This document shows positions 24,654 to 44,620 of a DNA stretch of 50,730 nucleotides, one piece after another (the stretch's first letter is position 1; every line of letters begins with the position of its first letter). Below the pieces are notes generated by a model that saw only the letters and a program-made list of their open reading frames with translations, was not told the origin of the DNA and ran no database searches. Origin of the DNA: Caldilineales bacterium (lineage in GTDB: Bacteria; Chloroflexota; Anaerolineae; J102); the NCBI GenBank assembly GCA_019695115.1, contig JAIBAP010000043.1, positions 1 to 50,730 of the forward strand. The letters run 5' to 3'. Both the position numbers and the translations under genes were made by a program.

Positions 24654-26162
24654 ATGAGCGGTGACAATCCCCCATTTTCTCTTCGCGTCGAAAATGTCTC
24701 CAAAGCCTTCCCTGGCGTGCAGGCGTTGGCGAACGTCAGCCTGGAGGTGAACGGCGGGGAGGTGTTGGGGTTGGTGGGCGAGAACGGCGCCGGCAAGTCA
24801 ACGCTGATCCAGATTCTAGCCGGCGCGCTGATGCCCGATAGCGGCAGGGTGCTGATCAATGGCGAAGAGATGGCGTTCAGGCACCCGCGCGAGGCAGAGG
24901 CAGCCGGCGTCAGCCCCGTGTACCAGGAACTGAGCCTGGTGAACAACCTGAGCGTGGCCGAGAATATCTTCGCCGGACGACAACCCACCGGGGCGGCGGG
25001 GTTGATCGATGTGGGGGCGATGAATCAGGCAGCGCAGGGGTTGCTGTCGCCATTTCGGGTCGATTTCAGCCCCGCGACCAAAGTGAGCAATCTCTCCTTG
25101 GGCAATCAGCAATTGGTCGAGATCGTCAAGGCCATGTCGCGCCATGCCCGTCTGCTCATCCTCGACGAGCCGACCTCATCGCTTTCGTTGCAGGAGGCGG
25201 GGCTGTTGTTCGAGCGGCTGTGGCAGCTCAAACAGCAGGGACTGGCGATCATCTTCGTCTCGCACCACCTGGAAGAGGTGTTCGAGATCTGCGACCGCAT
25301 CAGCGTGCTGCGCGATGGCAAGTATGTGGGCACGGTCAAGGCGGCGGAGTCGAGCGAGCACGAGATCGTGAGCATGATGGTGGGTCGCGATATCGGCGAG
25401 TGGCAGCGCCAGGACGAGACGGCGGGGGCGGTGGCGCTGGAAGTGGATGGCCTGACCCGCAAGGGTGTGTTCGAGAATGTCAGCTTTGCCGTGCATGCGG
25501 GCGAGGTGCTGACTTTCTTTGGGCTGGTGGGGGCGGGGCGCAGCGAGGTGGCGCGGGCCATCGTGGGCATGGATGTCGCTACTGGCGGCGCCGTCAAGGT
25601 CAAAGGCAGGCAGATGCGACCCATCCATCCTTCCGATGCCATGAACCTGGGCCTGGCCTATCTTTCGGAGGACCGCAAGCGCGAAGGGTTGTATCTGGAC
25701 AAGACGATCAAAGAAAACTTCCTGGTCACGAATCTGCGGCGGGTGTCGCCGGGCGGCTGGTTGAGTTGGCGGGCGTTGCAAGGGCTGACGGGCAAATACA
25801 CCCGGCTGCTGGATGTGCGCACGCCCAGTCTTGATCAACGGCTGCGGAACTTGTCGGGCGGCAACCAGCAGAAGGTGATGCTGGGCATGTGGCTTGCCAC
25901 TGAGCCGGATGTGCTGATCGTGGATGAGCCGACGCGCGGCATCGATGTGGGCACCAAGCAGGAAATTCACCGGCAACTGCGCCAATTGGCCGCCGAGGGC
26001 AAGGCGGTCATGGCGATTTCATCCGATTTGCCGGAGACGCTGACCATCAGCGACCGCATCGCCGTCATGCGCAAGGGCCGGCTGGTGGGGATCATCCCGC
26101 AGGCCGAGGCCAGCGAAGAACGGATTATGCAGATGGCGGCGGGGGTGATGCGTGACGCGTGA
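24654..26162 (+). CDS. Monosaccharide ABC importer 1, double ATP-binding protein (RbsA/MglA-like)
   Basis: A 502-residue protein with two fused nucleotide-binding domains, as in ribose, galactose and xylose importers. Domain 1 has Walker A GENGAGKSTL (about 43) and Walker B LLILDEPTSSL. Domain 2 has the degenerate Walker A-like GLVGAGRSEVARA, the signature LSGGNQQKVMLG and Walker B VLIVDEPTRGIDVG, the typical family asymmetry. AAGGAG lies upstream of the ATG. It energises uptake with the permease at 26339 and the binding protein at 27738. The TGA stop falls inside a heptamer repeat unit. Confidence 0.92.
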   Translation: MSGDNPPFSLRVENVSKAFPGVQALANVSLEVNGGEVLGLVGENGAGKSTLIQILAGALMPDSGRVLINGEEMAFRHPREAEAAGVSPVYQELSLVNNLSVAENIFAGRQPTGAAGLIDVGAMNQAAQGLLSPFRVDFSPATKVSNLSLGNQQLVEIVKAMSRHARLLILDEPTSSLSLQEAGLLFERLWQLKQQGLAIIFVSHHLEEVFEICDRISVLRDGKYVGTVKAAESSEHEIVSMMVGRDIGEWQRQDETAGAVALEVDGLTRKGVFENVSFAVHAGEVLTFFGLVGAGRSEVARAIVGMDVATGGAVKVKGRQMRPIHPSDAMNLGLAYLSEDRKREGLYLDKTIKENFLVTNLRRVSPGGWLSWRALQGLTGKYTRLLDVRTPSLDQRLRNLSGGNQQKVMLGMWLATEPDVLIVDEPTRGIDVGTKQEIHRQLRQLAAEGKAVMAISSDLPETLTISDRIAVMRKGRLVGIIPQAEASEERIMQMAAGVMRDA

Positions 26163-26338
26163 TGCGTGATGAGTGATGCCGGATGGAAGGAGGTTGTGGC
26201 AATTGTCAGGATTGGTTGATGGCGAACGGATTCATCACGAATAGCACGAATGGACAAATGACACGAATTTTTGCTACGAAATACGCAATACGCCCCAAAA
26301 CGAACTAAACTTTTCCGAATAAACATGGAGAGCAAGAC
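26149..26338 (+). repeat. Gap after sugar ATPase 1: heptamers (TGCGTGA family) and CACGAAT-type repeats
   Basis: Four 7-bp units (26149-26176: TGCGTGA, CGCGTGA, TGCGTGA, TGAGTGA), with the ATPase stop (26160-26162) inside unit 2. Further on, several CACGAAT copies (26235-26270) recur, a family also found at 46860-46890, and a short TACGAAA/TACGCAA run ends at about 26293. A ribosome-binding site GGAGAG precedes the ATG at 26339. Confidence 0.7.
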
Positions 26339-27325
26339 ATGACGACATCCGAAACCACCATACAGGCATCGACCAGACCATCGTTCGGGCGGCGTCTGGT
26401 CGAGCAGCGCGAGATCAGCATTTTTTTGGTTGTGCTTTTCGGGGCAATCCTGCTGTCGCTGCTGTCGAAGAACTTCCTGAACCCGGCCAATCTGAGGGCG
26501 CTCGTGCTGGGGCTTTCGTTCGACGCCATCGTGGCCGTGGGTATGACGGTGCTGATGGTATCGGGCGGCTTCGATCTCTCGGTTGGCTCTGTGCTGGCTC
26601 TGGCGGGGGCAGTGGCGGGCTACGGCATCGTGCTGCTCAAGCTGCCTGTGCCAGTGGGCATCGCTGCCGGGCTGTTGACGGGGGTGCTGGTCGGGTTGAT
26701 CAACGGTCTGCTCGTCTCCAAAGTGCGCGTGAATCCCCTTATCGCCACCCTGGGCATGATGCAGATCGCCCGCGGGGCCGTGTTCTTGCTGACGGCCGGC
26801 CTCGGCATCCCCAACCTGCCCGATTCGTTCAACAAGATGGCGCAGGGCAAGGCGCTGGGGTTCCAGTATCCGGTGTACATCATGCTGGTCATCGTCATCG
26901 TCGGCGACCTGCTGCTGCGGCGGTCGCGCTTTTTCCGCCAGAGCTATTTCGTGGGCGGGAACGAGCGCAGCGCCCGGCTGTCGGGCATCCGCGTGGGCCA
27001 GGTGCAGATCACCAACTACATCATCACCGGCTTGATGGCGGCGGTGGCGGGCCTGCTGCTGACGGCGCGCATGGGCACGGCCTCGGTGTCGGCGGGTCTG
27101 GGGGTCGAGCTGCGGGTGGTGTCGGCGGTCGTCATCGGTGGGGCCAGCCTGGCCGGCGGCGAAGGCACTGTGATCGGTTCGATCTTTGGCGTGGCCCTGA
27201 TGGCTCTTATCAACAATGGTCTCAATCTGCTGGGCGTCAACCCCTATTGGCAAAACATCGTCATCGGCGCCGTGCTGGTGATCGCTGTCGCCGCCGATGC
27301 GCTCAGCCGTCGTAATCGGGCATGA
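26339..27325 (+). CDS. Monosaccharide ABC importer 1, permease (RbsC-like)
   Basis: A 328-residue membrane protein of the BPD-transp-2 family with about nine or ten hydrophobic helices. Typical family motifs are GGFDLSVGSVLALAGA, RVNPLIATLGMM and NNGLNLLGVNPYWQNIVIGAVLVIAV near the C-terminus. It forms the transmembrane pore with the RbsA-like ATPase. The substrate is probably a pentose or related monosaccharide; the sequence does not tell which. It is separated from its binding protein by a 412-bp repeat-filled gap. Confidence 0.92.
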   Translation: MTTSETTIQASTRPSFGRRLVEQREISIFLVVLFGAILLSLLSKNFLNPANLRALVLGLSFDAIVAVGMTVLMVSGGFDLSVGSVLALAGAVAGYGIVLLKLPVPVGIAAGLLTGVLVGLINGLLVSKVRVNPLIATLGMMQIARGAVFLLTAGLGIPNLPDSFNKMAQGKALGFQYPVYIMLVIVIVGDLLLRRSRFFRQSYFVGGNERSARLSGIRVGQVQITNYIITGLMAAVAGLLLTARMGTASVSAGLGVELRVVSAVVIGGASLAGGEGTVIGSIFGVALMALINNGLNLLGVNPYWQNIVIGAVLVIAVAADALSRRNRA

Positions 27326-27737
27326 AAGTCGCAAGTGGCAAGTGGCAAGTCGCAGGTCGCAAGTGGCAAGTGGCAGGTCGCAAGTGGCAAGTGGCAGGTC
27401 GCAAGTGGCAGGTCGCAAGTGGCAAGTCGCAAGTCGCAAGTCGCAAGTCGCAAGTCGCAAGTGGCAAGTCGCAAGTCGCAAGTCGCAAGTCGCAAGTCGC
27501 AAGTGGCAGGTCGCAAGTGGCAGGTCGCAAGTGGCAGGTCGCAAGTGGCAAGTGGCAGGTCGCAAGTGGCAAGTGGCAGGTCGCAAGTCGCAAGTCGCAG
27601 GTCGCAAGTCGCAAGTCGCAAGTGGCAAGCTTGTCCTGAGTGCAACGAAGGATTGCAAGTCAAGAACGACCTGCCACCCGCCACCTGCCACCTGCATCCT
27701 TTTTTCTCTCACTCGTTTCCCATCAGGAGGAACCAAG
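27326..27737 (+). repeat. 412-bp gap: 42-unit heptamer array (GCAAGTG/GCAAGTC/GCAGGTC), 26-bp core, inverted heptamers
   Basis: Positions 27331-27624 are 42 perfect-phase 7-bp units with only a few variants (GCAAGTG, GCAAGTC, GCAGGTC). Then come the 26-bp core (27628-27653) and four reverse-complement units (27670-27697, CCTGCCA type), so the gap can fold back on itself. Because 7 is not a multiple of 3 and the units lack stops, frames across the array stay open and generate spurious ORFs. AGGAGG (27726-27730 region) sets the start of the next gene at 27738. Confidence 0.93.
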
Positions 27738-29786
27738 ATGTCCAAACGAACGCTTTTTTCGATGCTGTTGATCGGTCTGCTCGCGGTTGTATTGGCCGCG
27801 TGCGCCCAGCAACCAACCACTGCTCCGGCCGAGCAACCCACCCAGGCCCCAGCCGAAGAAGCCACCCAGTCGCCGGCGGCAGAGGCCACCCAGGCACCGG
27901 CGGCAGAAGCAACCCAGGCGCCAGCGGAAGAAGCAACGGCCGCCCCCACCGCTGAAAAGCCGTCCGGCGAGAAACAGACCTATTACGAGGTCAACGCCCT
28001 GATCAACCTGCCCTACTTCATCGATCATCAGGTCGGTCTGTACTATGCCGGCAAGGTGTTCGATGTCAACGCGCCGCATGTTGGCCCGGTGGACTATGAC
28101 ATGACCGCCATGGTCAACACCATGGAGCAGGCCATCGCCACCAACCCGCAGGGCATCAACATCGTTGGCTTCGACCCGGCCCTCAAGCCCTCGATCGACG
28201 CCGCCGTCGATGCCGGCATCCCCGTCGTCACCCTCGACGCCGAGGTCTACGGCTCCAAGCGCCTCACCTTCCTGGGCACCGGCAACTATAATGCCGGGCG
28301 CGTGGGCGGCAAGCTGCTGGCCGAAGCCATCGGCGGCAAGGGCAAGGTGGCGTTGCTGACCAAGGTCGGGCAAAGCAATCTGGAAGAGCGTATCCAGGGC
28401 TACAAGGACGAATTCGCCGAGAACTATCCCGACATCGAGTTGGTGCAGATCATCGATGATCAGTCCAATTCAGCCGTTGCCGCGGACAGCCTCAAAGCGG
28501 TGCTCCAGCGCGAACCTGATCTGGCCGGCGTGGGCTGTGTGGAGGCCGCTGGCGGCGTCGGCGCGGCCACGGCTGCCAATGAGCTGGGTCTGAAGGGCAA
28601 GCTGGTGATCGTCTCGATGGACCGCGATGATGGCACCCTCAAGTTCATCGAAGATGGCACCATCCATGCTTCGGTGGCGCAGCAAAGCTCGTTGATGACC
28701 TTCATCGGCACCATGCTGATGTACGGCCTGCACAACAACCCCGTGCCCATCGTGGCCGATAACGAAACCGCGGGCGTCGTCCCCATGCCCGAAAGCGTGG
28801 ACACCGGCGTAGTGGTGATCAACGCCGACAACGCCAAGTACTTCTACCATGCCCAGGACCCCTACGACTTCAGCCAGATGGAAGTGACCCCGCCCGCCCC
28901 GGACGAGACCTATGTCGAGGTGCTGGCGCTGATCAACCTGCCTTACTTCATCGACCATCGCCTGGGCCTGGAGTTTGCCGGCAAGGAACTGGGCGTCAAG
29001 ACCAAGTTCGTCGGGCCGGTGGACTATGACATGACGGCCATGATCAACACCCTCGAGCAGACCATTGCCGAGAAGCCCGCGGGCATCCTCGTGGTCGGCT
29101 TCGACCCGGCCCTCAAACCCTCGATCGACGCCGCCATCGACGCCGGCATCCCGGTCGTCACCCTTGACGCCGAAGTCTACGGCTCCAAGCGCCTGACCTT
29201 CCTGGGCACCGGCAACTACAACGCCGGTCGCGTGGGCGGCAAGTTGCTGGCCGAAGCTATTGGCGGCAAAGGCAAGGTTGCCATCTTGACTAAGGTCGGG
29301 CAGAGCAACCTGGAAGAACGCATCCAGGGCTACAAGGATGAATTGGCCGAGAACTACCCCGCTGTCGAGTTGGTGCAGATCATCGACGACCAGTCTAATT
29401 CGGCCATTGCCGCCGACAGCCTCAAGGCCCTATTGCAGCGCGAGCCAGATTTGGCCGGTGTGGGCTGTGTGGAAGCGGCCGGCGGCGTCGGCGCAGCCAC
29501 GGCTTCGAATGAGTTGGGTCTGAAAGGCAAGCTGAAGATCATCTCCATGGACCGCGATGATGGCACCCTCAAGTTCATCGAAGACGGCACCATCGTGGCC
29601 TCGGTGGCGCAGAAGACGGCCCTGATGTCGTACCTGGGCACCAAGCTGATGTACTACCTCAACCATGCGCCTGTGCCCGTCGTGCCCGACAACAAGGCCG
29701 CCGGCATCGTCCCCATGCCCGAATCGGTGGACACCGGCACGATCGTGATCAACAAGGACAACGCCAAGTTCTTCTATCATCAGTAA
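27738..29786 (+). CDS. Sugar-binding lipoprotein 1 with two tandem periplasmic-binding domains
   Basis: A 682-residue substrate-binding protein (RbsB/RhaS-like, Peripla_BP_4 fold). The signal peptide ends in the lipobox LAAC, followed by a linker of 8-residue Thr-Gln-Ala-Pro repeats (about 25-75). Ligand-binding domain 1 (about 80-370) and domain 2 (about 390-682) both contain LINLPYFIDH, VGPVDYDMTAM, GFDPALKPSIDAA and LTFLGTGNYNAGRVGG. The domains are clearly related but have diverged at many positions. Most family members have one domain of about 300 residues. The RBS AGGAGG fixes the start; an in-frame extension through the repeat array is rejected. Confidence 0.9.
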   Translation: MSKRTLFSMLLIGLLAVVLAACAQQPTTAPAEQPTQAPAEEATQSPAAEATQAPAAEATQAPAEEATAAPTAEKPSGEKQTYYEVNALINLPYFIDHQVGLYYAGKVFDVNAPHVGPVDYDMTAMVNTMEQAIATNPQGINIVGFDPALKPSIDAAVDAGIPVVTLDAEVYGSKRLTFLGTGNYNAGRVGGKLLAEAIGGKGKVALLTKVGQSNLEERIQGYKDEFAENYPDIELVQIIDDQSNSAVAADSLKAVLQREPDLAGVGCVEAAGGVGAATAANELGLKGKLVIVSMDRDDGTLKFIEDGTIHASVAQQSSLMTFIGTMLMYGLHNNPVPIVADNETAGVVPMPESVDTGVVVINADNAKYFYHAQDPYDFSQMEVTPPAPDETYVEVLALINLPYFIDHRLGLEFAGKELGVKTKFVGPVDYDMTAMINTLEQTIAEKPAGILVVGFDPALKPSIDAAIDAGIPVVTLDAEVYGSKRLTFLGTGNYNAGRVGGKLLAEAIGGKGKVAILTKVGQSNLEERIQGYKDELAENYPAVELVQIIDDQSNSAIAADSLKALLQREPDLAGVGCVEAAGGVGAATASNELGLKGKLKIISMDRDDGTLKFIEDGTIVASVAQKTALMSYLGTKLMYYLNHAPVPVVPDNKAAGIVPMPESVDTGTIVINKDNAKFFYHQ

Positions 29787-29814
29787 ACCTACCATCCGTC
29801 AACCATTCACCACC

Positions 29815-29844
29815 GGCTGGGGCGAGATCACCCTTGCCCCAGCC
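29815..29844 (+). terminator. Hairpin after binding protein 1
   Basis: GGCTGGGGC (29815-29823) pairs perfectly with GCCCCAGCC (29836-29844) around a 12-nt loop, with no T-run. It lies between the two binding-protein genes and may stabilise the upstream mRNA or attenuate readthrough. Confidence 0.45.
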
Positions 29845-29865
29845 CACTCCCGTAGGAGAGAGACC

Positions 29866-31869
29866 ATGAGAAACCCATTGACCATCCTGATCATCGCCTT
29901 ACTCTTGGTGAGCGTCCTGCTGGGCGCTTGTACTCCCACCCCAGCGCCCACCCAAGCGCCTGCAGCCGGCCAAGAACAGCCGACAGCCGCGCCGGCGGCC
30001 GGCAAGCCGCTGTTCGTGGCGATCAACAAGAGCGCCGACCAGCAGTATTTCATCGACTTGCAGAACTCGTTCGTCGAGACGGCGACCGGTCTGGGCGCGG
30101 ACGCCAAGAAGTTCGACGCCAAGCTCGACCCCAACCTGGGCGTAAGCCTGGTCAACGACGCCATCTCGGCGGGGGCCAAGGGCATTGCCATCACCGTGCC
30201 CGACCAAACCATCGGCCCGGCCATCGCCAAGGCGGCCAAGGATGCGGGCGTCGTGCTCATCGCCACCGACGATAGCATCAAGGATGAGGCTGGCAACCCT
30301 GTGCCCTTCGTCGGCTTCGACGGCAAGGACATGGGCAAGAAGGTAGGCGAGGCTGCGGCCAAGCTCCTGACCGATTCCGGTTGGCTCCAGGATGCGGCCA
30401 AGAAGGTCGGCGTGCTCTCGGTCGAAGTGCAGACACTCTCGGTCTGCAACGACCGCACCGACAACGAGAAGGCGGCCATCATCGCCGCCGGTGTGCCCGA
30501 AGCCCAGGTCTTGCCCGTGCCCTACACCGGCGAGACGCTCTCGGCCCAGGATGCCGCCGGCCCCATCATCACCGCCAACCCCGACATCACCAACTGGATC
30601 GTGTTCGGCTGCAACGATGAAGGCGTGCTCGGCGCCTCCAACGCCCTGGCCACAGCCGGCGCCAAGTCCGATGACATCATCGCCGTCGGCCTGGGCTCAT
30701 ACGAAGCCTGCAAGCCCTGGGCGGCAGGCCAGCCGACTGCCTTCAAGGCCGGCCTCTTCATCTCCGGCCTCGACGTAGGCAAGACAGCCGCCACCGTCCT
30801 CTTTGATGCCGTGGTGAACGGCAAGGCCCCGGCGCCCGCCTCCTACGCCCCCACCTCCATCGTCGATCCCACCAACTACAAGGACATCTTCGACCCCGTT
30901 TCCCTGGCCAACTGCACCAGTGGCGCTGCCCCGGCTGCGGCGGCCGGCAAGCCGCTGTTCGTGGCGATCAACAAGAGCGCCGACCAGCAGTATTTCATCG
31001 ACTTGCAGAACTCGTTCGTCGAGACGGCGACCGGTCTGGGCGCGGACGCCAAGAAGTTCGACGCCAAGCTCGACCCCAACCTGGGCGTAAGCCTGGTCAA
31101 CGACGCCATCTCGGCGGGGGCCAAGGGCATTGCCATCACCGTGCCCGACCAAACCATCGGCCCGGCCATCGCCAAGGCGGCCAAGGATGCGGGCGTCGTG
31201 CTCATCGCCACCGACGATAGCATCAAGGATGAGGCTGGCAACCCTGTGCCCTTCGTCGGCTTCGACGGCAAGGACATGGGCAAGAAGGTAGGCGAGGCTG
31301 CGGCCAAGCTCCTGACCGATTCCGGTTGGCTCCAGGATGCGGCCAAGAAGGTCGGCGTGCTCTCGGTCGAAGTGCAGACACTCTCGGTCTGCAACGACCG
31401 CACCGACAACGAGAAGGCGGCCATCATCGCCGCCGGTGTGCCCGAAGCCCAGGTCTTGCCCGTGCCCTACACCGGCGAGACGCTCTCGGCCCAGGATGCC
31501 GCCGGCCCCATCATCACCGCCAACCCCGACATCACCAACTGGATCGTGTTCGGCTGCAACGATGAAGGCGTGCTCGGCGCCTCCAACGCCCTGGCCACAG
31601 CCGGCGCCAAGTCCGATGACATCATCGCCGTCGGCCTGGGCTCATACGAAGCCTGCAAGCCCTGGGCGGCAGGCCAGCCGACTGCCTTCAAGGCCGGCCT
31701 CTTCATCTCCGGCCTCGACGTAGGCAAGACAGCCGCCACCGTCCTCTTTGATGCCGTAGTGAACGGCAAAGCCCCGGCGCCCGCCTCCTACGCCCCCACC
31801 TCCATCGTCGATCCTACCAACTACAAGGACATCTTCGACCCCGTTTCCCTGGCCAACTGCTCTAAGTAG
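29866..31869 (+). CDS. Sugar-binding lipoprotein 2 (AraF-like) with two nearly identical tandem domains
   Basis: A 667-residue binding protein. A signal peptide with lipobox LLGAC and a short Pro/Ala linker precede two copies of a 315-residue ligand-binding domain, each beginning GKPLFVAINKSADQQYFIDL and ending DPVSLANC. The domain resembles the L-arabinose-binding protein AraF (for example GWLQDAAKKVGVLSVEVQTL and NWIVFGCNDEGVLGASNAL). The repeats are identical in protein sequence. GGAGAG precedes the ATG. It should deliver sugar to the ATPase and permease that follow. Either two ligand sites per polypeptide are functional or the duplication is recent and unstable. Confidence 0.92.
   Translation: MRNPLTILIIALLLVSVLLGACTPTPAPTQAPAAGQEQPTAAPAAGKPLFVAINKSADQQYFIDLQNSFVETATGLGADAKKFDAKLDPNLGVSLVNDAISAGAKGIAITVPDQTIGPAIAKAAKDAGVVLIATDDSIKDEAGNPVPFVGFDGKDMGKKVGEAAAKLLTDSGWLQDAAKKVGVLSVEVQTLSVCNDRTDNEKAAIIAAGVPEAQVLPVPYTGETLSAQDAAGPIITANPDITNWIVFGCNDEGVLGASNALATAGAKSDDIIAVGLGSYEACKPWAAGQPTAFKAGLFISGLDVGKTAATVLFDAVVNGKAPAPASYAPTSIVDPTNYKDIFDPVSLANCTSGAAPAAAAGKPLFVAINKSADQQYFIDLQNSFVETATGLGADAKKFDAKLDPNLGVSLVNDAISAGAKGIAITVPDQTIGPAIAKAAKDAGVVLIATDDSIKDEAGNPVPFVGFDGKDMGKKVGEAAAKLLTDSGWLQDAAKKVGVLSVEVQTLSVCNDRTDNEKAAIIAAGVPEAQVLPVPYTGETLSAQDAAGPIITANPDITNWIVFGCNDEGVLGASNALATAGAKSDDIIAVGLGSYEACKPWAAGQPTAFKAGLFISGLDVGKTAATVLFDAVVNGKAPAPASYAPTSIVDPTNYKDIFDPVSLANCSK
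29996..31860 (+). repeat. 945-bp tandem duplication inside binding protein 2
   Basis: The unit 29996-30915 recurs 945 bp later. I found three differences: G30813/A31758, G30825/A31770 and C30870/T31815. All are synonymous and lie within the last about 100 bp of the unit. The rest appears identical, including the shadow reading frames. Confidence 0.93.
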
Positions 31870-31946: not shown

Positions 31947-33548
31947 ATGACAACCGTTTCCTCGGCTGAGACCACAGCGCCGCCGGTCAACCCGGCCGGA
32001 ACGCTGGAAATCCGTGATGTCAGCAAAGCCTTCCCCAATGTCCAGGCGCTGACCAACATTTCGCTTGACATCCGGCCAGGCGAAATCCTTGCCTTCATGG
32101 GCGAAAACGGAGCAGGAAAATCCACCTTACTGAAAATCATCAACGGCGACTATCAGCTGGATAGTGGCACGTTGACGCTGAATGGGCAGCGACTGACGTT
32201 TGCGAACCCAAACGACGCCCACAAGGCCGGCATCCGCGTGATCTACCAGGAGCCGGAGATCATCCCCGGCGTCGGCGTGGCCGAGAACATCTGGGTGGGC
32301 GAGTTGCCAAAGCGGATGGGTCTGATCGACCGTCGCCAGCTCAACGAACAGGTGCGGCGCAGCCTGATCGAATACGGTTTTCAGGATGTGCTGCCGATGC
32401 ATCTGTTGGGTGACGAGCTTTCTTCGGCGCAAAGACAGATCGTCGAGATTATGAGGGCGCTCAAGTCGGGGGTGCGGGTGCTGGCCCTCGACGAACCTAC
32501 GTCTTCGCTGACCGATGAGGAGGTCGACCGTCTCTTCACGCTGGTGCGCCGCCTGCGCGATGAAGGGGTTGCCATCATCTACGTTTCCCATCGCATCAAA
32601 GAGATTCTGCAGCTTTGCGACCGCGTGGCCATCCTGCGGGATGGCAAGCTGGTGGCGGTCAGGCCGGCGGTGGAGTTGACCGAGGGCGAGATCGTGCGTC
32701 TGATGGTGGGGCGCGAACTATCCGACATCTTCAGCCGCACCGCCAGTCTGACGAGGGGCGCCGAGGTGCTGCGAGTCGAACACCTTAGCAGCAACTGGCA
32801 TCGCGACATCAGTTTTCATGTCAACCGGGGCGAGGTGGTGGGGTTTGCCGGTTTGGTGGGCGCCGGACGGACAGAATTGGCCAAAGTGATCTTCGGCGAG
32901 TTCCCAAAATCCAGCGGCCGCGTCGTACTGGATGGCAAAGAGACAACGATCCGCCAACCTGACGATGCCATCGCCAAAGGGATCGGTTTTGCACCCGAAG
33001 ATCGCAAACGCGAGGGCCTGATCCTGATCCGCAGCGTGCTGGAGAATGCCTCGCTGGCAATTCTGCGACAGATCAGCCGTTTCCATTTCGTGCGCCGTGG
33101 GTTTGAACGCTCCATCGCCGCCGGTTATGTCGAAAAACTGCGCGTTCGCACCCCATCGCTGGAACAAGAGGTCGGCAAACTCTCCGGCGGCAACCAGCAA
33201 AAGGTGGTGTTAGCGCGCTGGTTGGCAGCGAAACCAAAGGTGTTGATCTTGGATGAGCCGACGCGCGGGATCGACGTTGGCGCTAAAGCCGAGATCTATC
33301 GGTTGATCGACGATCTTGCCCATCAGGGACTGGGGATCATGTTCATCAGTTCCGAGCTGCCAGAGATCCTCGGCCTTTCGGACCGTATTTATGTCATGCA
33401 GAACGGTCGCATCACCGGCGAACTGGCTGCCAAGGAGGCAACCGAAGAAACAATCCTCGGCATGGCCATGGCTGAAAATCTGTTGGAGGGCGTAAGCGTC
33501 ACTGCGCCCGCATCTACCGCCGTATTACAGGAGAAAACCTCACAATGA
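31947..33548 (+). CDS. Monosaccharide ABC importer 2, double ATP-binding protein (AraG-like)
   Basis: A 533-residue fused double nucleotide-binding protein. Domain 1 has Walker A GENGAGKSTLLK, and Walker B is in VLALDEPTSSLTDEE. Domain 2 has GLVGAGRTELAKVIFG, LSGGNQQKVVLARWLAAKPKVLILDEPTRGIDVG. The Q-loop and ABC signature of domain 1 (SSAQRQIVEIMRAL) are degenerate, as usual in this family. It overlaps the permease gene by 4 bp (ATGA). Together with the AraF-like protein and the permease it forms a complete importer. Confidence 0.93.
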   Translation: MTTVSSAETTAPPVNPAGTLEIRDVSKAFPNVQALTNISLDIRPGEILAFMGENGAGKSTLLKIINGDYQLDSGTLTLNGQRLTFANPNDAHKAGIRVIYQEPEIIPGVGVAENIWVGELPKRMGLIDRRQLNEQVRRSLIEYGFQDVLPMHLLGDELSSAQRQIVEIMRALKSGVRVLALDEPTSSLTDEEVDRLFTLVRRLRDEGVAIIYVSHRIKEILQLCDRVAILRDGKLVAVRPAVELTEGEIVRLMVGRELSDIFSRTASLTRGAEVLRVEHLSSNWHRDISFHVNRGEVVGFAGLVGAGRTELAKVIFGEFPKSSGRVVLDGKETTIRQPDDAIAKGIGFAPEDRKREGLILIRSVLENASLAILRQISRFHFVRRGFERSIAAGYVEKLRVRTPSLEQEVGKLSGGNQQKVVLARWLAAKPKVLILDEPTRGIDVGAKAEIYRLIDDLAHQGLGIMFISSELPEILGLSDRIYVMQNGRITGELAAKEATEETILGMAMAENLLEGVSVTAPASTAVLQEKTSQ

Positions 33549-34681
33549 GCAACGACACAACTTCTCCCGCCCCGACCTCGCCCCGGCGCAGCAGCCGGTT
33601 GGGCCGGCTGGTTGGAGCGATTGGCGTGGATAATTTGTCGCTCATGTTGGCGCTGGTCGCCCTTGTGTTTTTGGTGACGGTGGCCAGTCGCTGGTTCGGA
33701 CTTGAGGGCGGTGACAAGTTCTTCTCCTGGCAGAATCTGATGAATAGCCTGGCCCAGGCCATCGTGATCGTCGGCCTGCTGGCCATCGGCGAGACGGTGG
33801 TGATTGTCGCCGGCGCGCTGGATATCTCGGTCGGATCGATTGCCTCGGTCGGCTCGGTGATCGCCGCCTCGGTGTTGGTTGGGGCGGGCGTGGGCGCTCG
33901 ACTCAGTTTCCTGCTTGCGGGCAATGTGTTCGTGGCGGTGGCGGCCGGGATCATCGCCGGGGCCATCTGCGGGCTGATCAATGGTCTGATTGTAACCAAG
34001 CTCCGGGTCAACCCGATCATCGCTACCTTGGGCACGTTGGCCGCCTTTGCCGGCATGGCTTTCCTCTTGGCGCCCGAAGGCAAGCCCGTGGGTGTGCTCA
34101 CGCAACCGCAGTTCACCTGGCTGGCGCAGGGCCGCTTCCTGACCGGGCTGCCCATCCCGCCTCTGAGTGGCTCCAAATGGACGGGCGTGCCAGTGCTGAC
34201 TGTGATCTTGGTGGCCGTGGCCATCCTCGTGCACATCATCATGACGTATACGGATTTTGGCCGGGCCATCTATGCCATCGGCGGCAACGCGGCTGCGGCC
34301 CGTCTGGCAGGCATCAATCTCTCACGTGTGTGCATCCTGATGTACATGCTTTCAGGCAGCATTGCCGGGCTTGCGGGCGTACTCTTGACCGCCCGTACGA
34401 CGTCGGGCAACCCGGTGAACGGCACCGGCCTCGAACTCCAGGCCATCACCGCCGTTTTTTTGGGTGGAGCGGCGACGGCCGGCGGCAAAGGAACGATCTT
34501 TGGCACCTTCCTGGCCGTGATCCTCGTCGGCGTCCTCAACAATGGCATGAATCTACTCGGCTTCAATACCTTTGTTCAGCGCGTTGCCCTCGGCCTTTTG
34601 CTCATCGCCGCTGTGGCCATCTCGCAGTGGCGACAGGCCCGCGCCGAACGGGTGAGGACGCGTATCGCTGATAGGGGATGA
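33545..34681 (+). CDS. Monosaccharide ABC importer 2, permease (AraH-like)
   Basis: A 378-residue BPD-transp-2 permease with about ten hydrophobic helices. Family motifs are VIVAGALDISVGSIASVGSV, LRVNPIIATLGTLAAFAG, GGNAAAARLAGI and NNGMNLLGFNTFVQRVALGLLLIAAVA. It begins on the ATPase stop. The N-terminal 25 residues are Ser/Pro/Arg-rich and cytoplasmic. The next gene follows after 6 nt, so importer and mutarotase-like protein are probably co-transcribed. Confidence 0.92.
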   Translation: MSNDTTSPAPTSPRRSSRLGRLVGAIGVDNLSLMLALVALVFLVTVASRWFGLEGGDKFFSWQNLMNSLAQAIVIVGLLAIGETVVIVAGALDISVGSIASVGSVIAASVLVGAGVGARLSFLLAGNVFVAVAAGIIAGAICGLINGLIVTKLRVNPIIATLGTLAAFAGMAFLLAPEGKPVGVLTQPQFTWLAQGRFLTGLPIPPLSGSKWTGVPVLTVILVAVAILVHIIMTYTDFGRAIYAIGGNAAAARLAGINLSRVCILMYMLSGSIAGLAGVLLTARTTSGNPVNGTGLELQAITAVFLGGAATAGGKGTIFGTFLAVILVGVLNNGMNLLGFNTFVQRVALGLLLIAAVAISQWRQARAERVRTRIADRG

Positions 34682-34687
34682 TCGGCC

Positions 34688-35686
34688 ATGTCTCAACTAC
34701 GATCGACCACCTGGCAGGGGCTGTCTGCCTGGACGCTCGAAAACGCCGTGACCGGCGTCGTCATCGTACCAGAGATGGGCGCCAAAATAGCATCCTTGTG
34801 CGACCGACGCAACGGTTATGAGTGGATCGTCGGCCCCATTCCCGGCCGGGCAGTAAGGCAGGCCACCTATGGCGCACCTTTTGCAGAACAAGACATGGCC
34901 GGTTGGGATGAAATGTTCCCCACCATCATCGCCTGCGCCTATCCTGGCGCCGGCCCGCACCACGGTGTTCATCTGCCTGACCACGGCGAGGCCTGGGCCT
35001 TACCCTGGGAGGTGGTGAAGGCAACGGGAAGCGAGCTGACCTTGAGGCTCAGGGGGCAGGTGCTTCCCTACCGGCTGACGCGCACGGCCAGTCTCGTCGC
35101 CCCCACTGTGTTTCGCCTCGATTATAGATTGGAAAACCTGGGCGACGAAGCCATGCCCTACCTGTGGGCTGCGCACCCGCAGTTCGTGATCGGACCGGAT
35201 GGTTATGTCATCTTTCCGCCTGAGGTGGTCACTGTGATCAACACGATCCCGCCGACCTGGGGCTGGGGGGAGGCCGAGACCCGTTTCGACTGGCCGGAAG
35301 CGCTGGCCCCGGATGGTAGCCACAAGCGCCTCGATACGGTTGGCCCGGCTTCGGCTGGCCAGGGCCGCAAGTTCTATGCTCTCGCCGATGTGCATCCAGC
35401 GTGGGCGGCGGTCTGGAGCCGCTCCTCCGGCAACTGGCTGCGCCTGGAATGGGATCCAGCCCGACTGCCCTACCTGGGAGTATGGACGGATGAGGGCGCG
35501 GTGCATTGCGAAGCGGTCGTCTCGCCGCAACCGACCACGGGCTGGTATGACGATCTAAGCCTGGCCTGGCGCAAAGGGCGCGTGAACATCGTGCCGGGCG
35601 AGAGCGAACAGTGTTGGAGGCTGGATGTGCACCTGGGAATCGATGGCGACCCCCTCCCACCACACCCCCGAGAGGCAACACCATGA
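34688..35686 (+). CDS. Aldose 1-epimerase-like (galactose mutarotase-fold) protein
   Basis: A 332-residue beta-sandwich protein of the galactose-mutarotase superfamily. Recognisable parts are the N-terminal VVIVPEMGAKIASL, the HGVHLPDHGEAWALPWEV segment (catalytic His region), and AAHPQFVIGPDGYVI. Mutarotases interconvert sugar anomers for transport or metabolism, which fits its place right after the pentose-type importer. The subgroup is not the classic GalM, so substrate and even activity are uncertain. The stop overlaps the next ATG by 4 bp. Confidence 0.75.
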   Translation: MSQLRSTTWQGLSAWTLENAVTGVVIVPEMGAKIASLCDRRNGYEWIVGPIPGRAVRQATYGAPFAEQDMAGWDEMFPTIIACAYPGAGPHHGVHLPDHGEAWALPWEVVKATGSELTLRLRGQVLPYRLTRTASLVAPTVFRLDYRLENLGDEAMPYLWAAHPQFVIGPDGYVIFPPEVVTVINTIPPTWGWGEAETRFDWPEALAPDGSHKRLDTVGPASAGQGRKFYALADVHPAWAAVWSRSSGNWLRLEWDPARLPYLGVWTDEGAVHCEAVVSPQPTTGWYDDLSLAWRKGRVNIVPGESEQCWRLDVHLGIDGDPLPPHPREATP

Positions 35687-36852
35687 ACAATCTTGAACGT
35701 TTCACGAGAGCCATCCGCTGGCAAGCGGTCGACCGCATTCTCACTTATGATCTGGTCGATTGCGAACCCATGCTTGTCCAATTGGGCAGCTATGATCACT
35801 CGCGCAAGTATTCGTGGGAAGAAATCCTGGAGGTGAACGCCCTGGCCTGGAAGAATGCGGGCCTGAATGTGACCCGCTTCGTGTTCGATCCGGCCTCGCA
35901 CTGGATGGGCGGCAAGATCGTCAACTGGATTCGCTTCTTCCACGTCAATCCTGACGTCTGGAAGACCGACACCACCGGCGGCACCGCCTGGATCTCCAGG
36001 CGACCCTTCCGCGACTTGAAGGGCCTGGAAAAGCACATGCCGCAGCTGCCGGTGTTCGAGGAGGTGCGGGAGTGGTACGCGCCAGTGATCAGGCAGATCC
36101 AGGAGGTGATGGCCGAGCACGACATCGTCTTCATCGGCGCCGTCGAAGGCCCACTGACCGACGCCTACACCTACATGGATATTGAGTTGTTCGCCACCGC
36201 TGTCTATGACGCGCCGGAATTGGCGGCGCACGTGATGGATTGCTGCGGCCTGTTCTCGGCCCACATCGCCCGCACCTATGCCGAGGTTGGCGCTGTGCCC
36301 TTGCTGTTCATGGGCGAGGATATTTCCAGCACCCACGGCCCCATCTTCCAGCCCGCCTGGGTGCGGCAAGAGGCGCTGCCCCGCTGGCGCTGGATCGCGG
36401 ATCCGATCCATCAGGCCGGGATGAAGTTCCTCTATCATTCCGATGGCCGCTACGGTAGCTTTCTGCCGGTCATTTTCGATGAATTGGGTGCGGACGGGCT
36501 GAACCCCATCGAGCGCAATGGCTGCAACGACATCTTCAGCATCCGCGCTGCCTACCCCGACAAACTGCTGTTCGGCAATGTCTGCTGCGCCCAAACCCTG
36601 CCCTATGGCACGCCCTACGATGTCGAAGACGAGACGCTGGAACTCATCGAGAAGATCGGGCCACAGGGCGGCATCTTCATCGGTTCGTCCAGCGAAGTGC
36701 ACGACCTGGTGCCGGTGGCGAACACTCGCACGATGTACCGCACCGTGCACGATTACGGCGTCTATCCCATCGATGTCGAGCGCATCCGCGCCCGCCGCGC
36801 CGCCCTGCGCGCAAAAGGTCAACTCGATCTGCGAGCGAAGGCGCCGCTTTGA
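35683..36852 (+). CDS. UroD-family protein A (HxD type)
   Basis: A 389-residue (beta/alpha)8 protein of the uroporphyrinogen decarboxylase/MtaA-like superfamily. It starts MNNLERFTRAIRWQAVDRI, the usual opening. The zinc-binding H-x-C of methylcobamide:CoM methyltransferases is replaced by YHSDGRY (about residue 251). A cysteine pair NVCCAQ lies near residue 305. It therefore belongs to the large uncharacterised HxD branch rather than to haem synthesis; no other haem genes are near. Coupling by a 4-bp overlap to the mutarotase gene points to sugar-linked or methyl-transfer metabolism. Confidence 0.8.
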   Translation: MNNLERFTRAIRWQAVDRILTYDLVDCEPMLVQLGSYDHSRKYSWEEILEVNALAWKNAGLNVTRFVFDPASHWMGGKIVNWIRFFHVNPDVWKTDTTGGTAWISRRPFRDLKGLEKHMPQLPVFEEVREWYAPVIRQIQEVMAEHDIVFIGAVEGPLTDAYTYMDIELFATAVYDAPELAAHVMDCCGLFSAHIARTYAEVGAVPLLFMGEDISSTHGPIFQPAWVRQEALPRWRWIADPIHQAGMKFLYHSDGRYGSFLPVIFDELGADGLNPIERNGCNDIFSIRAAYPDKLLFGNVCCAQTLPYGTPYDVEDETLELIEKIGPQGGIFIGSSSEVHDLVPVANTRTMYRTVHDYGVYPIDVERIRARRAALRAKGQLDLRAKAPL

Positions 36853-36993
36853 GGAAGTAGATAAGTAGACAAGGAAACAAGGAAACAAGTAGACAAGTAG
36901 GCAAGAAAACAAGTAGATAAGTAGACAAGGAAACAAGTAGGCAAGGAACGACACCAATAACCAGTTACCAATAACCAATTACCAATTACCATC
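36853..36993 (+). repeat. Octamer array (GTAGACAA/GGAAACAA), 11 units, then heptamers (CCAATTA), 5 units
   Basis: Eleven 8-bp purine-rich units (36857-36944) begin 4 nt after the stop of protein A. Five 7-bp units CCAATAA/CCAGTTA/CCAATTA (36954-36988) end 5 nt before the next ATG. No Shine-Dalgarno sequence is evident. Confidence 0.9.
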
Positions 36994-38025
36994 ATGAACT
37001 CCATCGCACGCGTCCAGGCCGCCATCGACCTGCGTCCACCCGACCGTGTGCCGGTCGATTTGCACAATTTTCAGCCAGCGGCGAAAGCGATGGGCGTGCC
37101 CATGTCGCAAGTCTTTCAGGATGGCGAGTTGCTGGCCGAATCGATGTTGCGCGCCTGGCGCCAGTTCGGTCACGACATGATCCTGCTGGAAAACGGCACC
37201 GCCTGCAACGCCCAGGCTTGCGGCGTCCAGGTCGTCTATCGCGATGACGCCGCGCCCGCCGCCCATATCCCGGTGCTCAAGCGGCTCGAAGATGTGGACG
37301 ACCTGGAAGTGCCGGACCCGTACACCGCCTTCCCCATGTGCGAGGTGATCAAGGCCACGCGTATCCTCAGCCAAGAGATCGGCGACCAGGCATGGATCGT
37401 GGCCCGCGCCGACCAGGGGCCGATGGATCTGGCCGCGCAGCTTTTCGGCATCCAGGAGTTGATGCTGGCGATTGCCCTCGACGAAGACCCCGACGGCATC
37501 CACCGCCTGCTGGACTACGCCCGCCGCGTGGTCACGCGCTTTGCCATCGCCCAGATCGAAGCCGGGGGCCGCTCCACCTCCATCGGCGAACCTATCGCCG
37601 GCCCGGATCTGATGTCGCCCCGGCACTATCGCCAGTACGCCTGGCCGCACGAAAAACGCATGGTCGACGAGTTGAAGGGGCACGGCATCCTCCCGGCCAA
37701 CCACATCTGCGGCAACACCATCCCCATCATCCACGATTTTGTGGCCACGGGCGCCCAAATCCTCGAAATCGACCACAAGGCCAACAAACAGAAGGCGAAA
37801 GACGCCGCCCGCGGCAAGACCTGTCTGCTGGGCACGCTCGACACTTCGTTGATTCTGGACGGCACGCCGCAGGAAGTGGACGACGCCTGCCGCGAGGCCA
37901 TCGCCATCCTCGCCCCCGATTCCGGCTTCATCCTCGGCCCCGGCTGCGCCCTCGACCCCAATGTTCCCGCCGACAATATCCACGCCCTGGTCGAGTCGGC
38001 GAGGAAGTATGGGGGGTATGAGTAG
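36994..38025 (+). CDS. UroD-family protein B (HxC zinc-type, MtaA/MtbA-like)
   Basis: A 343-residue protein that keeps the zinc-ligand pattern of cobamide-dependent methyltransferases: HICGNTIPI (about residue 239, H-x-C) and a distal cysteine in LGPGCALDPN (about 317). These enzymes transfer a methyl group between a methyl-corrinoid protein and a thiol or folate-type acceptor. No corrinoid protein gene is visible in the window. It starts MNSIARVQAAIDLRPPDRVPV, typical of the family. A true haem-pathway UroD is unlikely because the N-terminal FxRQAGRxLP-type motif of HemE is absent. Confidence 0.8.
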   Translation: MNSIARVQAAIDLRPPDRVPVDLHNFQPAAKAMGVPMSQVFQDGELLAESMLRAWRQFGHDMILLENGTACNAQACGVQVVYRDDAAPAAHIPVLKRLEDVDDLEVPDPYTAFPMCEVIKATRILSQEIGDQAWIVARADQGPMDLAAQLFGIQELMLAIALDEDPDGIHRLLDYARRVVTRFAIAQIEAGGRSTSIGEPIAGPDLMSPRHYRQYAWPHEKRMVDELKGHGILPANHICGNTIPIIHDFVATGAQILEIDHKANKQKAKDAARGKTCLLGTLDTSLILDGTPQEVDDACREAIAILAPDSGFILGPGCALDPNVPADNIHALVESARKYGGYE

Positions 38026-38200
38026 GTAGACAAGGAAATAAGTAGACAAGGAAACAAGGAAATAAGTAGACAAGGAAACAAGGAAATAGGTAGACAAGGA
38101 AACAGGAAAAGAAGGCCTCGCTGTCGAGAACACGACTCGCATCCCTGCCCTTGTCTACTTGTCTACTCCATCTACTTGTCTACTCCAAAAGGAAACCCCC
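38026..38200 (+). repeat. Inverted octamer arrays (GTAGACAA... and CTTGTCTA...)
   Basis: Ten 8-bp units (38026-38105, GTAGACAA/GGAAATAA/GGAAACAA) start directly after the stop of protein B. Their reverse complement CTTGTCTA recurs at 38150-38157, 38158-38165 and 38175-38182 before the next gene. The two arrays can pair across a 44-nt unique spacer. An AAAGGAAA stretch precedes the ATG at 38201. Confidence 0.88.
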
Positions 38201-39388
38201 ATGGAAATCTCCCAACCGCTTTCCCCTGCCGAACGCGACGATTTTCGCCGGCGCTTCGAGCAGCGCCTGGCCAAAGTGGCGGCCAAGACCGACGACGTAT
38301 TCGCGTTCAGAAAGGTCGATTTCCCGCCCTATATCGTCAATAGCTCGCTGTATTGGGTCTTTGGTCTGGACACGAACACCCTGCCCGCCGCCTATTTCGA
38401 CGACCCGGCGGCGATGGTGAATTTCCAGGAGCAAACGTATTACGACCAGATCAAATCCATCGACGACGACTTCGTGCCCTATCTCATGCCCTGGTTCGGC
38501 ACCATCGTCGCTGCCTCGGCCTTCGGCTGCCAGATCGAGTTCTATCCCAAAGCCGACCCGGCCGCCAACCCCCGCTACTATCCCGTGCAAAAGCCGGAGG
38601 ACGTGAAGAAGCTGCGGGTTCCCGACCCCGAAAAGGATGGCCTGATGCCGCGCGTGCTTGATTTTCTGCGCTACATGAAAGCCAACAGCTTCCTGCCCGT
38701 GGGCTACACCGATTTTCAAGGCCCGCTGACCACGGCGAACCAGCTTTTGGGCTACGACAAACTCATCTACCTGATGTTCGACCACCCCAAGCTGATGCAC
38801 GAGCTGATGGACATCGTCACCGAGTCGCTGATCCTGTGGGTGAAGACGCAGAAAGCCCTCATCGAGGAGCCGCTGCACGAGTGTATCTCCGACCAGCAAG
38901 TCTATACGGGTAAGAATGCGGGCGTGTGGTTCTCGGACGACGATGCCGTGCTGATGTCGCCGGACACCTATCGCGAGTTCGTCGTGCCCTACAACTCGCG
39001 CGTATTGCAGGCGTTCGGCGGCGGCTGCATCCACTATTGCGGCAACGCCACCCATCACGCCGACAATTTTCTGGCGACCGAAGGACTGAAGGCGCTAAAC
39101 ATCTACAACCTGTACAACATCCCCTCGGTGGCCCAGCTACAACAGAAGCTGCAAGACCGCATCGCGCTCTTCGTCTGCGATTTCACGCCGGTCGAGTACG
39201 AAGCCTATTTCGACGAGATGCTGGCCAGCCTCGACTACCGGGGCATGGTCATCTGCTCGCAATTCTCGCCTACCGTCGGCCTGCTCAGAGGCGGGCGCTA
39301 CGACGCCGTCGAGCGCGACATGCGCTCGGGCCGCAGGGCGGTGTGCGACTATTTGCAGAAGCGATCAGGCTTGAGGAGTGAAACGTGA
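38201..39388 (+). CDS. UroD-family protein C (HxC type)
   Basis: A 395-residue UroD/MtaA-like protein with H-x-C as IHYCGNATHH (about residue 280) and a distal cysteine in MVICSQFSP (about 351), so probably zinc-binding. It is divergent from proteins A, B and D, and has an N-terminal extension with DVFAFRKVDFPPYIVNSSLYW. The final residues and TGA stop are made of repeat units, so the last few codons are likely unconserved. The in-frame start at 38159 lies inside the repeat array and is rejected in favour of 38201. Confidence 0.78.
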   Translation: MEISQPLSPAERDDFRRRFEQRLAKVAAKTDDVFAFRKVDFPPYIVNSSLYWVFGLDTNTLPAAYFDDPAAMVNFQEQTYYDQIKSIDDDFVPYLMPWFGTIVAASAFGCQIEFYPKADPAANPRYYPVQKPEDVKKLRVPDPEKDGLMPRVLDFLRYMKANSFLPVGYTDFQGPLTTANQLLGYDKLIYLMFDHPKLMHELMDIVTESLILWVKTQKALIEEPLHECISDQQVYTGKNAGVWFSDDDAVLMSPDTYREFVVPYNSRVLQAFGGGCIHYCGNATHHADNFLATEGLKALNIYNLYNIPSVAQLQQKLQDRIALFVCDFTPVEYEAYFDEMLASLDYRGMVICSQFSPTVGLLRGGRYDAVERDMRSGRRAVCDYLQKRSGLRSET

Positions 39389-39540
39389 GGCGCGAAGCGT
39401 GAATTCTCATCGCAAGCAGCCGGATAGATGCAGCGCCTCGAATTGAGGAGTCCGAAAGAACCCAGGCACAGCCTTGTCTTGTCCAAACACTCGCCACCCC
39501 AGCAGACATCACGTTTCACTCTTCACGCATCACGCCTCCC
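39376..39540 (+). repeat. Inverted heptamer arrays bounding the gap before the CobW gene
   Basis: Left: four units (39376-39402, GGAGTGA, AACGTGA, GGCGCGA, AGCGTGA), with the stop codon of protein C (39386-39388) ending unit 2. Right: five units (39509-39543, TCACGTT, TCACTCT, TCACGCA, TCACGCC, TCCCGTG), the fifth containing the GTG start of the next gene. The two arrays are mutually complementary. Confidence 0.88.
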
Positions 39541-40455
39541 GTGTCTTCGCCTTTCCCGATTCCGACCACCCTCATCGCTGGCTTCCTCGGCGCCGGCAAG
39601 ACCACACTGCTCAACCGCATCTTGCAGGGCGAGCACGGCCGGCGCCTGGCCGTCGTCGTCAATGACTTCGGCGCCATCGAGATCGACGCCGGGCTGATCG
39701 ACGCCGCCGGAGCAGGCGAAATCGTCAGCCTGCCCAACGGCTGCATCTGTTGCAGTCTGTTCGGCAACCTGGTGGATGCCCTCCGCCGCCTCGTCGCCCT
39801 GCCCGACCCGCCCGACCACATCCTGATCGAGGCCAGCGGCGTCTCCGCCCCCCATCAGATTCTGCCCGCCCTCGAATCGCGCCCCCTCGCCGGCCGCCTT
39901 GCCCTCGATGGCGTCATCACCCTCGTCGATGCCGAGAACGTGCGCCGGATCGCCGGCGTCGTCGTCTTCATCGAAAGCCAGATCGAGACCGCCGACCTCG
40001 TCGTGGTCAACAAGACCGACCGGGTCAGCCCCGACGCCCTGACCGAGCTGACCGGCTGGATTCGCTCCCTCGCCCCGGCCGCCCGCATCTTCCCCACCAA
40101 CTTCGCCCAAGTCCCGCTGGACGTGTTGTTGGGTGGGGGACATTCAGACCTTTTGGGTCTGCGAGACCCAGAAGGTCTGGAACACGACCACCACCTCGAC
40201 TTCGCCACCTGGACTTGCGAATCCGACCAGCCGCTCGACCGCCAAACATTTCTGGCCACGCTCGCCAGCCTGCCCCCCACCGTCTATCGCGCCAAAGGTT
40301 TCCTCTGTCTGGCCGACGCGCCCGACCAGCGCACCATCCTGCAAATGGTGGGCGGCCGCATCCGGCTGGAGGAGGGCGGGGCCTGGGACGAGCGTGAACG
40401 CAAAACGCAGGTTGTCTGCATCGGCGAGGCCGGCAGCCGCATCGAGATACTCTAA
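39541..40455 (+). CDS. CobW/COG0523-family GTP-dependent metallochaperone
   Basis: A 304-residue G3E GTPase. Walker A is IAGFLGAGKTTLLNR (about 13), the family metal-binding motif is GCICCSL (CxCC, about residue 64), and the G-domain NKTD motif is VVNKTD (about 159). The C-terminal CobW_C domain (about 220-304) follows a His-rich stretch EHDHHLDF. Members deliver zinc, cobalt or iron to target enzymes. The location among zinc-type UroD-family genes suggests those as clients, which is inference. The GTG start lies within a heptamer unit. A palindrome is embedded in the coding sequence just before the His-rich segment. Confidence 0.88.
   Translation: MSSPFPIPTTLIAGFLGAGKTTLLNRILQGEHGRRLAVVVNDFGAIEIDAGLIDAAGAGEIVSLPNGCICCSLFGNLVDALRRLVALPDPPDHILIEASGVSAPHQILPALESRPLAGRLALDGVITLVDAENVRRIAGVVVFIESQIETADLVVVNKTDRVSPDALTELTGWIRSLAPAARIFPTNFAQVPLDVLLGGGHSDLLGLRDPEGLEHDHHLDFATWTCESDQPLDRQTFLATLASLPPTVYRAKGFLCLADAPDQRTILQMVGGRIRLEEGGAWDERERKTQVVCIGEAGSRIEIL
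40145..40179 (+). repeat. Palindromic element inserted in frame within the CobW gene
   Basis: Two 16-bp arms (40145-40160 and 40164-40179; CAGACCTTTTGGGTCT and its near-perfect complement with one mismatch) surround GCG. It encodes about 12 residues (roughly SDLLGLRDPEGL) without breaking the frame. It resembles intergenic REP-like elements and lies in a variable linker. Confidence 0.85.
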
Positions 40456-40572
40456 CAGCAAACACAAAGACTCGAAGGACACAAAATCCCCCAAAGTTTT
40501 TCCCCCCTTCTTTGTGTTCCCTTCGTGCCCTTTGTGCCTTCGTGTTCATCCCCATTTCCCTTTGGAGCCACC
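40456..40572 (+). repeat. Inverted CACAAAG/CTTTGTG-type repeats in the gap before UroD-family protein D
   Basis: The left part (about 40459-40487) has ACACAAAG and GAAGGACACAAA. The right part (about 40508-40550) has TTTGTGTTCCC, TTCGTGCCC, TTTGTGCC and TTCGTGTTC. The two halves are complementary and could form a hairpin. TTTGGAGCC precedes the ATG at 40573. Confidence 0.65.
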
Positions 40573-43986: not shown

Positions 43987-44620
43987 ACTGGCATACGAGA
44001 GCGAACTCCAACGCGGCGGCGAGTTCATGCTGCGCGAAGCCAGCGCCTTCTTCGATGGCGGCGGCAGGCTGCGCGAGACGCTGCGTCGGCTGGCGGAACG
44101 ACTCGAAGCTGAAGGCATTGCTTACGCCCTGGTAGGCGGGCTGGCCCTGGCCGAACACGGTTATCCTCGACTGACTGAGCATATCGACATCGTTTTGACG
44201 GGCGCAGGACTCGCGCAGTTTACAGAGCGGTGGCTGGGACGAGGCTATCGTCCGGCCTTTGAGGGCGCGCGCAAATCGTTTCGTGATGCCCAGACAGGCG
44301 TGCGCATCGAAATCCTGCTGACGGGTGAGTACCCGGGAGATGGCCTCCCGAAGCCGGTGGCATTCCCGGATCCGGCGTTTCCGAACGCGACAATCGAGAT
44401 CGACGGCATCCATGTCATTGCCCTCGATCGCTTGATCGAGATGAAACTGGCCTCAGGTTTGAGCGCCGGCCACCGCCTGCGTGATCTGGCCGATGTGCAA
44501 GACCTGATTGGCCGCCTCGACCTGCCTCTGGAGCTGGCAGAGCGTCTGCACCCGTCCGTCGTCCCGGCCTACAAAGAGCTGTGGGAACAAGTTCAGGCGG
44601 GAAAAGCCGAGGAGACGTGA
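43973..44620 (+). CDS. Nucleotidyltransferase-fold protein (AbiEii/MenT-like), candidate toxin
   Basis: A 215-residue protein of the DNA polymerase beta-like nucleotidyltransferase superfamily. The signature is LVGGLALAEHGYPRLTEHIDIVL (split GG...D-x-D-type motif, near residue 50); the first acidic position is shifted, as TEHID rather than TEDID. Later conserved parts are GARKSFRDAQTGVRIEILLTG and IALDRLIEMKLASG. Relatives include AbiEii/MenT toxins that modify tRNA ends, but housekeeping members exist. The start is set by the 14-bp overlap with DUF433, implying co-translation. The end overlaps the GH31 gene (GTGA). Confidence 0.72.
   Translation: MDTLELAYESELQRGGEFMLREASAFFDGGGRLRETLRRLAERLEAEGIAYALVGGLALAEHGYPRLTEHIDIVLTGAGLAQFTERWLGRGYRPAFEGARKSFRDAQTGVRIEILLTGEYPGDGLPKPVAFPDPAFPNATIEIDGIHVIALDRLIEMKLASGLSAGHRLRDLADVQDLIGRLDLPLELAERLHPSVVPAYKELWEQVQAGKAEET

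Follow-up and report, generated by a model that had tools for sequence, protein, structure and literature searches.

The window, the whole 50,730 nt stretch of Caldilineales DNA analysed here, carries two adjacent forward-strand genes for sugar-binding lipoproteins, SBP1 (27738–29786; 682 aa) and the AraF-like SBP2 (29866–31869; 667 aa). Both begin with a lipobox (LAAC and LGAC, respectively) followed by an Ala/Pro-rich tether, and the two tandem ligand-binding domains that the first-pass annotation proposed for each were recovered as two full PF13407 (Peripla_BP_4) stretches apiece, all four domains scoring above the curated cut-off of 35.1 bits. Within SBP1, domain 1 (D1; 27960–28850, PF13407 match at 28014–28730) and domain 2 (D2; 28890–29783, match at 28941–29660) repeat with a period of 930 bp, or 310 aa, and share 82 % identity in both protein and DNA. 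This identity is unevenly spread at the DNA level, being approximately 0.9 in the core of the domains and 0.5–0.8 at their ends. An AF2 model of D2 (pLDDT 93.6) superimposes on the arabinose-binding protein AraP (6sw4) with a TM score of 0.92, and D2 is thus predicted to be a complete AraP-like domain with the type I SBP fold. AlphaFold prediction of the full double SBP1, with seven sequences, reached a pLDDT of 48.

The repeat of SBP2 has a period of 945 bp, and its copies (29993–30915 and 30938–31860) match exactly over 820 bp (29993–30812 against 30938–31757). Only three mismatches occur in 923 bp, at positions 30813, 30825 and 30870, all of which are silent in the aligned domain, such that the earlier description of the two domains as identical holds for the protein over the domain. 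SBP1 is closest to AraP of Geobacillus (6sw4) and to 3g1w (E-value approximately 1e-51), whilst for SBP2 the nearest solved structure is AraF (E-value approximately 3e-27); neither protein reaches the cut-off of an NCBIfam equivalog (arabinose, ribose, rhizopine and other subfamilies). The two proteins had been called unrelated but, judged by their sequences, they are distant relatives, whose type I binding domains belong to separate subfamilies of PF13407.

Each binding protein is accompanied by a double-ABC ATPase and a BPD_transp_2 permease, likewise on the forward strand. For SBP1 (24654–27325) these are an AraG/RbsA-like ATPase with two ABC_tran stretches (24654–26162) and a permease (26339–27325), in a gene order of ATPase, permease and SBP1 that is conserved at the loci of doubled SBP1 orthologues. 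For SBP2 (31947–34681) they are an AraG-like ATPase with a double ABC domain (31947–33548) and an AraH-like permease (33545–34681). This arrangement is best explained by two adjacent CUT2-type sugar importers, with SBP1 and SBP2 as their substrate-binding lipoproteins.

Binding-domain arrays within the genome and beyond

A PF13407 profile search of the genome from which the window derives (5.99 Mb in 135 contigs) revealed paired matches of equal or near-equal score within single frames at seven loci, one of which is a triple. The protein identity between copies ranges from 82 % in SBP1, through 87 % (contig C35), 96 % (C16) and 99 % (SBP2), to approximately 98–100 % in C13, C24 and the triple on C3. 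Such internal repeats were found by fragment searches, as self-comparison of whole proteins by BLASTP masks them through HSP culling. Arrays also occur beyond PF13407, in Bmp (C33), Peripla_BP_6 (C4 and C10) and SBP_bac_1 (C3 and C40) proteins, giving a total of twelve in four SBP families, ten of them besides SBP1 and SBP2; the linkers between copies are unique sequence. A restriction of arrays to type I SBPs was considered and rejected, as the two SBP_bac_1 arrays contradict it. In a blind sample of 1.16 Mb, comprising 1511 open frames of ≥250 aa (shadow frames included), exactly two whole-domain tandem duplications were present at a threshold of ≥60 % identity. Both lie in binding lipoproteins, and within the sampled part the duplication habit is therefore confined to SBPs.

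With regard to other organisms, counts were taken from hit tables, and an ORF was considered a strong PF13407 member at an E-value ≤ 1e-20. Arrays account for 7 of the 14 strong ORFs in the genome itself and for none of the 104 in eleven Bacillota genomes (Fisher p approximately 6.5e-8); across four genomes of the family they make up 18 of 69 (Fisher p = 1.4e-8 against Bacillota). None were found in one Clostridiales and two Treponema MAGs. In other Chloroflexota they occur in smaller numbers (G365, G406 and G282), and a phylum survey with a two-domain profile, scoring three candidates per genome, returned at least 12 of 400, which is a lower bound only. Conversely, no arrays were found in the single-contig Chloroflexota genomes G029, G045 and G166, so that the habit is not universal. 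Amongst relatives the copy number is one, two or three, with triples in G000, G001 and G008, and some families have single forms in close relatives (G001:C18, against the array on G000:C24), which indicates that doubling is not indispensable. With twelve arrays in one genome, more than a quarter of the strong ORFs in four genomes of the family and further examples across the phylum, the earlier suggestion that doubling is a lineage-wide trait rather than a local accident is supported by sequence comparison.

It might be asked whether assemblers have simply made these repeats, given that several copies show no difference over stretches exceeding 800 bp and that, in fragmented MAGs, some arrays fall at the end of a contig (G008:C66 and G036:C70). 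This is scarcely credible, as G282, which belongs to another Chloroflexota class and is finished as a single contig of 4.68 Mb, encodes a double SBP with copies 99 % identical. Moreover, the SBP1 copies diverge at approximately 18 % of sites, the doubling of SBP1 recurs in independent MAGs, inter-copy linkers are unique, the SBP2 copies carry three distinguishing bases, and short-read assembly would collapse identical repeats, concealing arrays and not creating them. The double SBP of G282 lies at L207 (G282:C1:4012348–4014123); the same genome also encodes a double Bmp protein with copies 92 % identical (L210).

History of the duplications

Doubled orthologues of SBP1, 78–91 % identical, are found in MAGs named Caldilineales, Thermoflexales and Anaerolineae, and the double form has been retained in several genera and under three family codes. 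A search of 396 genomes of the class gave seven orthologues, six of which are double; the pattern named beforehand as speaking against selection, with singles everywhere else and no fixed double, is thus not what related Chloroflexota display. The nearest clear single-domain homologue, from a Clostridiales MAG, is 57 % identical. Because a linker (DPYDFS...ETYVEVLAL) is common to the doubled orthologues, and the domain ends, including those specific to D1, are conserved in seven MAGs, the doubling of SBP1 is ancestral.

Trees of 14 domains from these seven genomes tell different stories for the ends (aa 1–65 and 205–267) and the core (aa 65–205). For the ends, D1 is split from D2 with support of 100/99, whilst in the core D1 does not form a group: forcing it to do so lowers lnL by 117 (AU p = 8.7e-6), and D1 pairs with the D2 of its own genome in G000, G001 and CAILYI. 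Counts of site patterns along the gene similarly show a signal of position at the ends and of genome in the middle. Grouping by genome in the core and by position at the ends shows that an old double gene has undergone gene conversion between its two copies, and in SBP1 of the window the D1 core homogenised with D2 is placed, approximately, at 28170–28660 by DNA identity, the core tree and site patterns. Silent-site differences within a genome are 0.26 for G000 and 0.33 for G001, compared with 0.32–0.38 between the two, so that the within-genome advantage is narrow for G001; the pairs of G005 and G008 are more divergent (0.58 and 0.60) and no closer within a genome than between genomes. Conserved linkers and a like pattern of ends and middle recur in family F8 (G005 and G008) and, more weakly, in family F7 (G002, G032 and G041). 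Copies within a genome that are closer than orthologues, despite an ancestral duplication, are therefore seen in the SBP1 core, in F8 and, to a lesser degree, in F7. The sole single-domain SBP1 orthologue of the class (L187, in G561) resembles D1 at its head and D2 over the rest, a putative chimaera as expected from recombination between repeats; assembly collapse would look alike.

For SBP2, a doubled orthologue exists in G411, 88 % identical between genomes and 99 % between its own copies, and a more distant doubled homologue in G008 (39 %, own copies 98 %). All 167 informative sites in the comparison of G000 with G411 group by genome, from which it would follow either that the two genomes doubled SBP2 independently or that complete homogenisation has followed an old doubling. 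The proposal that SBP1 and SBP2 duplicated independently, at different times, is consequently not supported, as homogenisation has affected the SBP1 core and SBP2 is also doubled in G411; since D1 and D2 undergo gene conversion, copy identity is no clock for duplication. A further SBP fixed in double form, its two domains deeply diverged, was observed in four families of the class (L087, L086, L089 and L083, of G038, G025, G036 and G041, respectively), and is an older tandem without homogenisation.

These histories bear on whether doubling has been favoured or merely endured. Tandem duplications arise everywhere, and it may be that only anchored SBPs with flexible tails can bear an extra in-frame domain, after which recombination between long repeats would keep the copies alike with no benefit necessary. 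The variable copy number amongst relatives and single orthologues such as G001:C18 fit this account, as does the fact that homogenisation requires no selection, and arrays of the SBP2 type could be neutral, with lipoproteins tolerating such duplications well. As a general explanation it is nevertheless unlikely, as SBP1 has kept its doubling, linker and position-specific ends across genera and families, with F7 and F8 behaving likewise, whereas identical repeats should be easily lost by recombination. Bacillota lipoproteins of the same Pfam, presumably as tolerant, have in addition no arrays among their 104 strong ORFs. Alternatively, copies might be amplified for expression dosage, giving more binding sites per mRNA or secretion event, with an accordion-like copy number and permease geometry irrelevant. 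Copies that match exactly or almost so, as in SBP2, C13, C24 and the triple on C3, would accord with this, as would the triples of three genomes and the contraction-like chimaera L187, but old, stable doubles with conserved linkers are not transient and separate tandem genes would yield equal dosage, leaving dosage a rather improbable cause. Selection for bivalent binding lipoproteins, as put forward in the first-pass annotation, is a plausible reading.

Probable same-ligand capture and known systems

The pocket was compared at RbsB and AraF positions which we take to line it. RbsB-type positions F16, D89, R141, D215 and Q235 are the same in D1 and D2 of SBP1. Both SBP2 copies keep AraF K10, D89, D90, R151 and N205, and both are changed at E14, W16, N232 and D235. 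Because pocket residues agree in the two SBP1 copies, bivalent capture of the same ligand is the likeliest function of SBP1, and two working same-ligand sites per anchor would be the simplest reading. A broadening of specificity, with two domains for different ligands as in GlnPQ, might explain why D1 and D2 have long kept distinct N- and C-terminal ends, which could mean some division of labour. It is, however, very improbable, given identical pocket positions, a repeatedly homogenised core in SBP1 and copies of SBP2 that are identical in protein sequence.

SBP1 and SBP2 are thus probably members of lineage-wide arrays, homogenised by recombination, that raise same-ligand capture per anchor. 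Each of the two carries a single lipid anchor, a disordered Ala/Pro/Glu tether and, in tandem, two complete type I domains. Arrays of two or three domains, in several SBP families, would originate when the entire mature domain is duplicated in tandem and in frame, and would then persist, with recombination between copies (gene conversion) keeping these alike and now and then enlarging an array to three domains or reducing it to one. Both domains would bind the same ligand and dock by turns on the same permease, so that doubling would place more loaded sites on each anchor and near the translocator, and thereby speed uptake at low substrate rather than widen specificity. Chloroflexota are without LPS, and many may be monoderm, although this is still debated (PMC8871954); for such cells, several domains per anchored SBP would be a reasonable solution. 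That Chloroflexota sustain multivalent nutrient-capture lipoproteins throughout their genomes, with many separate importers having gained two or three copies of the whole binding domain, ongoing recombination within the gene tuning copy number and keeping copies identical, and selection favouring multivalent capture of a single ligand by each anchor, is offered tentatively, as a possibility of slightly less than even standing.

Tandem binding domains have been described in the importer GlnPQ of Lactococcus lactis, where they give four sites near the translocation path (PMC8025302); these are amino-acid domains fused to the membrane domain and differing in specificity. The arrays described here, by contrast, are free-standing sugar-binding lipoproteins whose domains, up to three in number, have a common pocket and are kept alike by gene conversion. 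OpuA of the same species similarly holds two identical binding domains near one translocator, tethered at millimolar local concentration to each other, and loss of one of the two lowers Vmax twofold (PMC11065425); it differs in having one domain per polypeptide, fused to the permease dimer, and is not a tandem lipoprotein. Fusion of binding and transmembrane domains, as in GlnPQ and OpuA, is absent from SBP1 and SBP2, which are separate ORFs with a lipobox. AraP (6sw4), AraF (1abe and 4kzk) and RbsB are single-domain CUT2 proteins, to which each SBP1 or SBP2 domain is a complete homologue, and among the PDB sequence matches listed no chain is long enough for tandem domains, all being 271–371 aa.

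A description of free lipoprotein SBP arrays was not found in the open-access papers searched, which is weak evidence of absence. What appears new is not tandem permease-fused domains, of which a few Gram-positive amino-acid and osmolyte importers already offer examples, but free lipoprotein arrays of near-identical whole domains in four SBP families, with concerted evolution. A single genome has them among its sugar, LIV-type, BMP and CUT1-type SBPs, and they recur across the phylum, which amounts to a natural, repeated experiment on the reasons an importer might have for more than one binding domain, as well as a clear example in bacteria of intragenic concerted evolution. A warning follows too, in that arrays of this kind will be concealed in short-read assemblies and copy identity is unfit for dating them.

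Sequences surrounding the importers

Between SBP1 and the permease of its importer lie 43 tandem heptamers (A[AG]GT[GC]GC; 27326–27626), whose RNA strand folds unusually well (z −5.3); an Rfam search of the locus gave no matches. The same heptamer arrays are dispersed in the genome, with 20 of at least four units in the loci read, for example one of 35 units at L102:13979–14223. Beside both importers are four URO-D-fold genes (35611, 36994, 38159 and 40525, within 35611–41721), the first with MtaA-like matches, and a CobW GTPase gene at 39541. URO-D-like genes also flank relatives of SBP1 in G005 (L150) and CAILYI (L183), and the single-domain form of Clostridiales (L188). In view of these URO-D and CobW neighbours, the imported substrate is possibly a methylated sugar that undergoes corrinoid-dependent demethylation. 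Further downstream, the region 44581–50402 encodes sugar catabolism functions, comprising a GH31 glycosidase, an enolase-superfamily protein like sugar-acid dehydratases, a class II aldolase-like protein and a PfkB kinase.
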